Made by a program: the position numbers and the translations under genes. From NCBI RefSeq assembly GCF_001999245.1, contig NZ_CP019630.1, positions 5,795,001-5,859,000 of the forward strand: a stretch of DNA of 64,000 bases. The letters run 5' to 3'. This document shows, piece after piece, positions 118-256 of the stretch (its first letter is position 1; every line of letters begins with the position of its first letter). This DNA comes from Roseibium algicola. Its GTDB lineage: Bacteria > Pseudomonadota > Alphaproteobacteria > Rhizobiales > Stappiaceae. Under the pieces are notes generated by a model. The model ran no database searches. It saw only the letters and a list, made by a program, of their open reading frames with translations, and was not told where the DNA came from.

Positions 118-256
118 ATGAAATAAAGAGATCGCGTCCCTAGGCATCCTCCTCCCAGCCGACGGGCGTGTGACACGCAGGGCATCCTCCTCCCAGCCCT
201 GTCACGTCGAAACGTCACCCGCCAGCACCTCCTCCCGCTGGCGGGCGTTCGTTTTT
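118..256 (+). ncRNA. Tandem CCUCCUCCC hairpin sRNAs (CcsR / 'cuckoo' type), three units
   Basis: Three hairpins follow the DUF1127 stop. Unit 1 (135-164) pairs CGTC/GACG and GGC/GCC. Unit 2 (178-201) has a perfect 6-bp stem CAGGGC/GCCCTG. Unit 3 (218-245) is the terminator. CCTCCTCCC lies in each loop, at 148-156, 186-194 and 228-236. Units 1 and 2 share the 18-base direct repeat at 143-160 and 181-198, with the identical loop ATCCTCCTCCCA. The motif resembles the anti-Shine-Dalgarno end of 16S rRNA. In R. sphaeroides, CcsR1-4 sRNAs with this loop motif are processed from a DUF1127 transcript and act in stress responses. Function here is inferred from architecture; processing ends are unknown. 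Confidence 0.8.
218..256 (+). terminator. Rho-independent terminator of the first DUF1127-sRNA unit
   Basis: The arms CCCGCCAGC (218-226) and GCTGGCGGG (237-245) form a perfect 9-bp stem around the loop ACCTCCTCCC. A T-rich tract follows (CGTTCGTTTTT, 246-256). The terminator loop itself carries the CCTCCTCCC motif, so the terminator hairpin is also the last sRNA-like unit. Confidence 0.85.

Follow-up and report, generated by a model that had tools for sequence, protein, structure and literature searches.

The CcsR RNAs of R. sphaeroides are four in number, with two hairpins each. They follow a DUF1127 gene in the ccaF1-CcsR1-4 locus (PMC10253847, PMC8625941), which is described as transcribed from an RpoHI/RpoHII promoter and whose DUF1127 protein, CcaF1, binds RNA and matures CcsR together with RNase E (PMC10253847). 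That paper also describes the CIN1 locus, in which DUF1127 stands beside CcsR-like RNAs, as a frequent arrangement in alphaproteobacteria. Other DUF1127 proteins work through protein contacts, such as binding of the kinase PhoR (PMC12501420), and the DUF1127 literature is now split between RNA-binding and kinase-binding proteins. Members of the alpha-r14 family are recognized by three hairpins that carry CCUCCUCCC (PMC10746234), and a 2011 paper reported three- and four-hairpin families with this loop and the two-hairpin RS0680a (PMC3927594). NfeR1 has three redundant loops, is Hfq-independent and represses ntrB at its start site; its promoter consists of the box TGCA-N6-GCAT at -72 to -60 followed by CTTAGAC-N17-CTATAT, and LsrB binds the box in EMSA and is required for NfeR1 expression (PMC10746234). 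The LsrB orthologue VtlR is a direct activator of abcR1 and atu1667 in Agrobacterium (PMC7486931, which could not decide between protein and RNA as the active product of atu1667); in Brucella, abcR2 and three DUF1127 genes are under its control (PMC12595884). The papers disagree on the influence of S. meliloti LsrB on AbcR, with no effect in PMC7486931 and control in PMC10746234.

The locus described here lies at the beginning of a 64,000-nucleotide stretch of the Roseibium algicola genome (6.65 Mb), referred to as the window. The 3' part of a DUF1127 gene occupies positions 1-117 of the plus strand (open reading frame; Pfam PF06568, 57.3 bits, cut-off 23.3); the gene encodes 49 aa in total, starts 33 bases before the window and ends its frame at 117. 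It is followed on the same strand by an alpha-r14-type RNA at 128-252 (RF02344, 57.2 bits, E 4.4e-9, cut-off 58.8, model positions 1-123 of 123). Folding and stem covariation delimit a first hairpin at 133-170, a second at 172-208 and a third at 209-256, the last with its core at 218-245 and the T-rich run GCGTTCGTTTTT behind it, which together form the predicted terminator. The motif CCTCCTCCC sits in the loops at 148-156, 186-194 and 228-236, and the predicted fold of 118-256 (-54.1 kcal/mol, z -4.18, equalled by none of 200 shuffles) displays it in every loop. A further plus-strand copy lies at 1122-1130, giving four copies over both strands of the window compared with a mean of 0.48 in dinucleotide shuffles, none of which (0/100) reached four. 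The first two hairpins have in common the 18-base direct repeat GGCATCCTCCTCCCAGCC, at 143-160 and 181-198. The gene followed by three hairpins with CCTCCTCCC loops, the repeat, the double role of the third hairpin as terminator and the anti-Shine-Dalgarno character of the loops had all been described in the original prediction; positions, fold and Pfam match agree with it, and the loop assignment is judged right.

Unit 1, as this gene and RNA are called below, has the defining trait of alpha-r14, three hairpins with CCUCCUCCC in each loop, and also that of the CcaF1-CcsR operon, a DUF1127 gene immediately ahead of the RNA in the same orientation and a terminator common to both. Its RNA is most probably of the alpha-r14 (cuckoo) type, carried in the DUF1127 3' UTR; family and arrangement are both known. 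Calling the design unusual, with three copies where CcsR has four, was an overstatement, as both the three-hairpin family and its pairing with DUF1127 have been published, and the finding as first written is an ordinary one. Among the articles listed in a literature search on cuckoo RNA and ar14, none was on this RNA by title.

The unit is one of two in tandem, the second lying at 948-1216 of the plus strand. Unit 2 is preceded by an LsrB-type box, TGCA-N6-GCAT, at 808-821 (box and layout scan), followed by a putative -35 (CTACCT, 843-848) and a putative -10 (CTATCT, 866-871) that are 17 nt apart and conserved in relatives. A second 49-aa DUF1127 gene follows at 948-1097 (PF06568, 55.7 bits, cut-off 23.3) and then a second alpha-r14-type RNA at 1103-1216 (RF02344, 50.9 bits, E 1.1e-7; fold z -6.84). 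The hairpins of this RNA, at about 1107-1215, are a motif hairpin with CCTCCTCCC in its loop, a plain hairpin and a terminator hairpin with CTTCCTCCC. With one exact motif copy in three loops, unit 2 is without the three-loop trait of alpha-r14, and its middle hairpin is motif-free in aligned relatives too. The CTTCCTCCC loop has one T more here than in the relative locus L011. Gene order is uvrA, DUF1127-1, RNA 1, DUF1127-2, RNA 2, trmFO. The uvrA part compared is the last 406 codons and scores 730 bits with the NCBIfam UvrA model, below its cut-off because the gene is cut short; trmFO reaches 672 bits against a cut-off of 262. Among the matches listed, Roseibium aggregatum is the closest named relative, with a DUF1127-2 that is 100% identical.

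Both RNAs align with RF02344 over the full length of the model, although unit 1 falls 1.6 bits short of the 58.8-bit cut-off and unit 2 is also under it. A covariance search with the CcsR model, which the original prediction had itself proposed, left unit 1 far below the cut-off (RF02791, 22.6 bits against 65.3, E 0.018), and this score rules out membership of CcsR1. Origin as a dispersed repeat element was also rejected. The genome holds 46 CCTCCTCCC sites (35 for the pattern read backwards as a control), of which four lie in the two units, and there is one strong hairpin among the other 42. That hairpin, the one site of the 42 with a stem score >14.5 (L120), overlaps an ar15/AbcR match; since roughly 3% of random positions reach at least 17.5, a single high score among 42 would prove nothing without this match and the gene order around it. 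The same simple stem score gives the hairpin at 1122 just 10 because its stem is interrupted.

Conservation was assessed in named genomes, using the best 80 of 162 DUF1127 loci; the exact loop motif occurs within 700 nt downstream in 60 of the 80 and is absent there in 20. The Roseibium group comprises 24 of these loci (L011-L034), and unit 1 has three exact loops in every one, spaced by 38 (21 loci), 39 or 41 nt between the first two motifs and by 42 (18 loci), 41 or 43 nt between the second pair. Unit 2 is looser, with two exact copies in 18 loci, one in 4 and none in 2. In the unit 1 alignment (25 sequences, 24 distinct), pairing is kept in 98.1% of stem cells, and both partners have changed in 17 of 37 stem pairs, compared with a mean of 3.7 in shuffles and 1 to 4 in slid structures, a result favored by the fact that the consensus structure was predicted from the same alignment. 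Exact loops on double-changed stems indicate that sequence is preserved in the loops but not in the stems; the pattern named beforehand as grounds for refutation, loops unconserved on covarying stems, is the reverse of the one found. This bears on the idea that the chief role of the hairpins is to protect the DUF1127 mRNA as a stable 3' end, with a loop that matters just for binding of DUF1127 or an RNase in cis. The hairpins do form a terminator about 15-30 nt behind the stop codon, as such a role would have it, but loops exact in 24 of 24 loci despite changing stems, the existence of such RNAs with no DUF1127 gene in cis and the action of NfeR1 loops in trans (PMC10746234) make this reading very improbable.

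Both units and an AbcR-like RNA elsewhere in the genome share one promoter layout, TGCR-N6-GCAT, 21 nt, a CTNNNN -35, 17 nt and an NNATNT -10, which was first spotted by eye in this genome and afterwards scripted. At the two units the box is TGCA-N6-GCAT and lies at the NfeR1 distance from the core promoter (21 nt to the -35, 17 nt spacer); that of unit 1 is outside the window, 121 bases before the ATG of DUF1127 gene 1. The strict layout was matched 67 times in sense and once in antisense in the 80 loci (best 80 of 162). It precedes gene 1 in 24/24 and gene 2 in 20/24 Roseibium-group loci and is also found before DUF1127 in Pannonibacter (2/2), Phyllobacterium (11/11) and Rhizobium (6/8), and is missing from the 11 Aureimonas loci. 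The exact box occurs within 260 nt upstream in 39 of the same 80 loci compared with 18 of 1273 control windows, and other box spacers of 3 to 11 nt gave 0 to 11 matches in the same windows. Of 61 boxes, 41 have a -10-like hexamer beginning 58 nt downstream of where the box starts. When the gene 1 box was sought in a longer form, no second copy had <3 mismatches. The exact box is upstream of 37 of the 60 loci that have the loop motif downstream and of 2 of the 20 that do not; the link between layout and loop motif has a p of 0.008 over the 80 loci, which are non-independent, and is not significant over 24 taxon groups (p 0.19). By layout, the promoter of the units resembles that of NfeR1 and would fit LsrB.

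The AbcR-like RNA (L120/L133; C1, about position 4331958, minus strand) carries CCTCCTCCC in the strong hairpin mentioned above, and matches ar15/AbcR with 29.7 bits (cut-off 40). It is preceded by a LysR gene and a thioredoxin reductase gene (trxB), the order described for trxB-vtlR-abcR. The LysR gene, for which no NCBIfam model passed its cut-off, is named here as a putative LsrB/VtlR by gene order. It is about an even bet that a single LsrB/VtlR regulon comprises AbcR and the DUF1127-alpha-r14 transcripts; its conserved core would be the hairpin array, of up to 12 loops in some genomes, and the DUF1127 frame would be an optional insert between promoter and RNA. Should this be the case, atu1667 and other "small protein" targets of VtlR would yield both a protein and an sRNA, and effects credited to the protein may be those of the RNA. 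A single conserved layout would join LsrB regulation of NfeR1, VtlR regulation of DUF1127 genes and AbcR, and the shared ccaF1-CcsR transcript in a regulon open to testing. This link and the loci lacking DUF1127 are the additions of this analysis; by term counts, none of the open-access papers listed names both NfeR1 and DUF1127, which is no proof that the link is unpublished.

Across the family, an ar14 match at E 0.001 or better was present in 60 of 61 genomes (over the cut-off in 39) and DUF1127 in all 61. Outside one sister genus (g6) there were 109 ar14 hits in 45 genomes. A listed DUF1127 domain lies at most 200 nt upstream of 80 of them and at most 1500 nt upstream of another 27, which leaves 2 without such a neighbor (107/109 with one). 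The loops can be numerous, with nine in a row in G014, G040 and G049 (G040 has two more further on) and six in G055. Four triplets, or 12 anti-Shine-Dalgarno loops, stand behind one DUF1127 gene in G005 (L134), each triplet ending in a T run and the longest run following the last. In two further loci, L055 and L078, three loop motifs lie upstream of the DUF1127 match, and in L055 the first motif is preceded, at a distance of about 137 nt, by a promoter with the shared layout, in the manner of NfeR1.

Conditions differ in the sister genus, where 37 ar14 hits in 15 of 16 genomes have no DUF1127 gene beside them (the nearest match is 7.4 kb off and below the cut-off) and each of the 15 genomes has a DUF1127 gene elsewhere. 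In one of them (L139, genome G006) the RNA occupies the uvrA-trmFO slot at 1560-1760, with one exact CCTCCTCCC loop plus TTCCTCCC loops, and no DUF1127-like frame was found in the slot among open reading frames of 40 aa or more; a second genome (L142) has a similar fold. The LsrB-type box and a -10-like hexamer lie at the same distance upstream in four of the six loci read from this genus (L139, L142, L141 and L144), with a poor -35 in L139 and L142, and the box was not found upstream of L140 and L143. Because these RNAs lack a nearby DUF1127 gene and keep the box in four of six loci, the RNA looks like the core of the system and the protein like an optional part. Such genomes are a natural experiment on whether function is carried by the protein or the RNA.

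They also weigh on the possibility that the locus is a CcsR-type system, an RpoH-driven stress transcript in which a CcaF1-like DUF1127 protein, itself essential, binds and matures the RNAs. The likeness to CcsR1-4 drawn in the original prediction stands for the plan of gene plus hairpins and for the loops, and the RNA binding by CcaF1 and its maturation of CcsR with RNase E (PMC10253847) lend this alternative some appeal. The likeness fails at the CcsR1 model and at the promoter, which in its layout would fit NfeR1 rather than RpoH, and RNAs without a neighboring DUF1127 gene in 15 of 16 genomes argue against an essential protein, so that a CcsR-type system is unlikely here.

The reading preferred, at a probability of roughly 70%, is that unit 1 is an alpha-r14 RNA behind DUF1127, one of two tandem units, activated by LsrB/VtlR and acting on target mRNAs through redundant anti-Shine-Dalgarno loops, with the protein as an accessory. 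The DNA itself supplies the gene, the three hairpins (their loops conserved, their stems covarying), the predicted terminator, the gene order and the common promoter layout, and the most likely function, as we infer it, is that of LsrB/VtlR-activated, redundant antisense RNAs against Shine-Dalgarno sites. The LysR activator would turn on a single transcript of DUF1127 and hairpins, from which RNase cleavage may release the hairpin RNA, by analogy with CcsR. Each loop would then offer a redundant CCUCCUCCC seed for pairing with Shine-Dalgarno sequences of target mRNAs, transporters possibly among them, and pairing would block translation as it does for NfeR1, probably the best precedent for the mechanism. 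The DUF1127 protein may be a co-expressed accessory, in RNA maturation or in contact with a sensor kinase, and would be dispensable for the RNA.

Candidate targets were sought as GGGAGGAGG-N3-10-ATG sites in the genome, which number seven compared with one for the reversed pattern. Five of the seven open no frame >37 aa, one being the complement of the AbcR-like hairpin, and the two that remain precede a cytochrome P450 gene and a 438-aa frame (L153:187-1503, contig C2). The latter has GGGAGGAGG three bases before its ATG, a likeness to ABC substrate-binding proteins (30.4 bits, cut-off 700) and no Pfam match, and is a weak candidate target; perfect 9-base sites before real genes are few and point weakly to targets in general. 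A different use of the loops, as a bulk decoy that slows general translation by covering the Shine-Dalgarno sites of many mRNAs, would suit the dosage implied by 9 to 12 loops behind one DUF1127 gene (G005, G014, G040, G049). Published effects concern particular mRNAs (PMC10746234), and bulk action is the least probable of the alternatives considered, marginally behind the protective 3' end.

Several described systems resemble the locus. Like the VtlR/LsrB regulon (AbcR, atu1667 and the Brucella DUF1127 genes), this genome has trxB, LysR and an AbcR-like RNA in the same order; it differs in the hairpins behind its DUF1127 genes, none being mentioned behind atu1667 in the accessible part of PMC7486931. 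The CcaF1-CcsR1-4 operon likewise has a DUF1127 gene ahead of RNAs that carry this loop motif, but comprises four two-hairpin RNAs under an RpoHI/RpoHII promoter, and the RNAs here fall short of its CcsR1 model (RF02791). The cuckoo RNA family and CIN1 locus (Reinkensmeier and Giegerich 2015), compared here through what PMC10253847 reports of them, unite such RNAs with DUF1127 neighbors as this locus does. With alpha-r14 (RF02344; S. meliloti NfeR1; RFMSmelA075), unit 1 has in common three CCUCCUCCC hairpins, variable stems and a terminator in the third. NfeR1 also shares the LsrB-type box and sigma70 layout found at both units; it is described with a promoter of its own (PMC10746234), whereas at each of the two units here a DUF1127 frame separates the RNA from the promoter.
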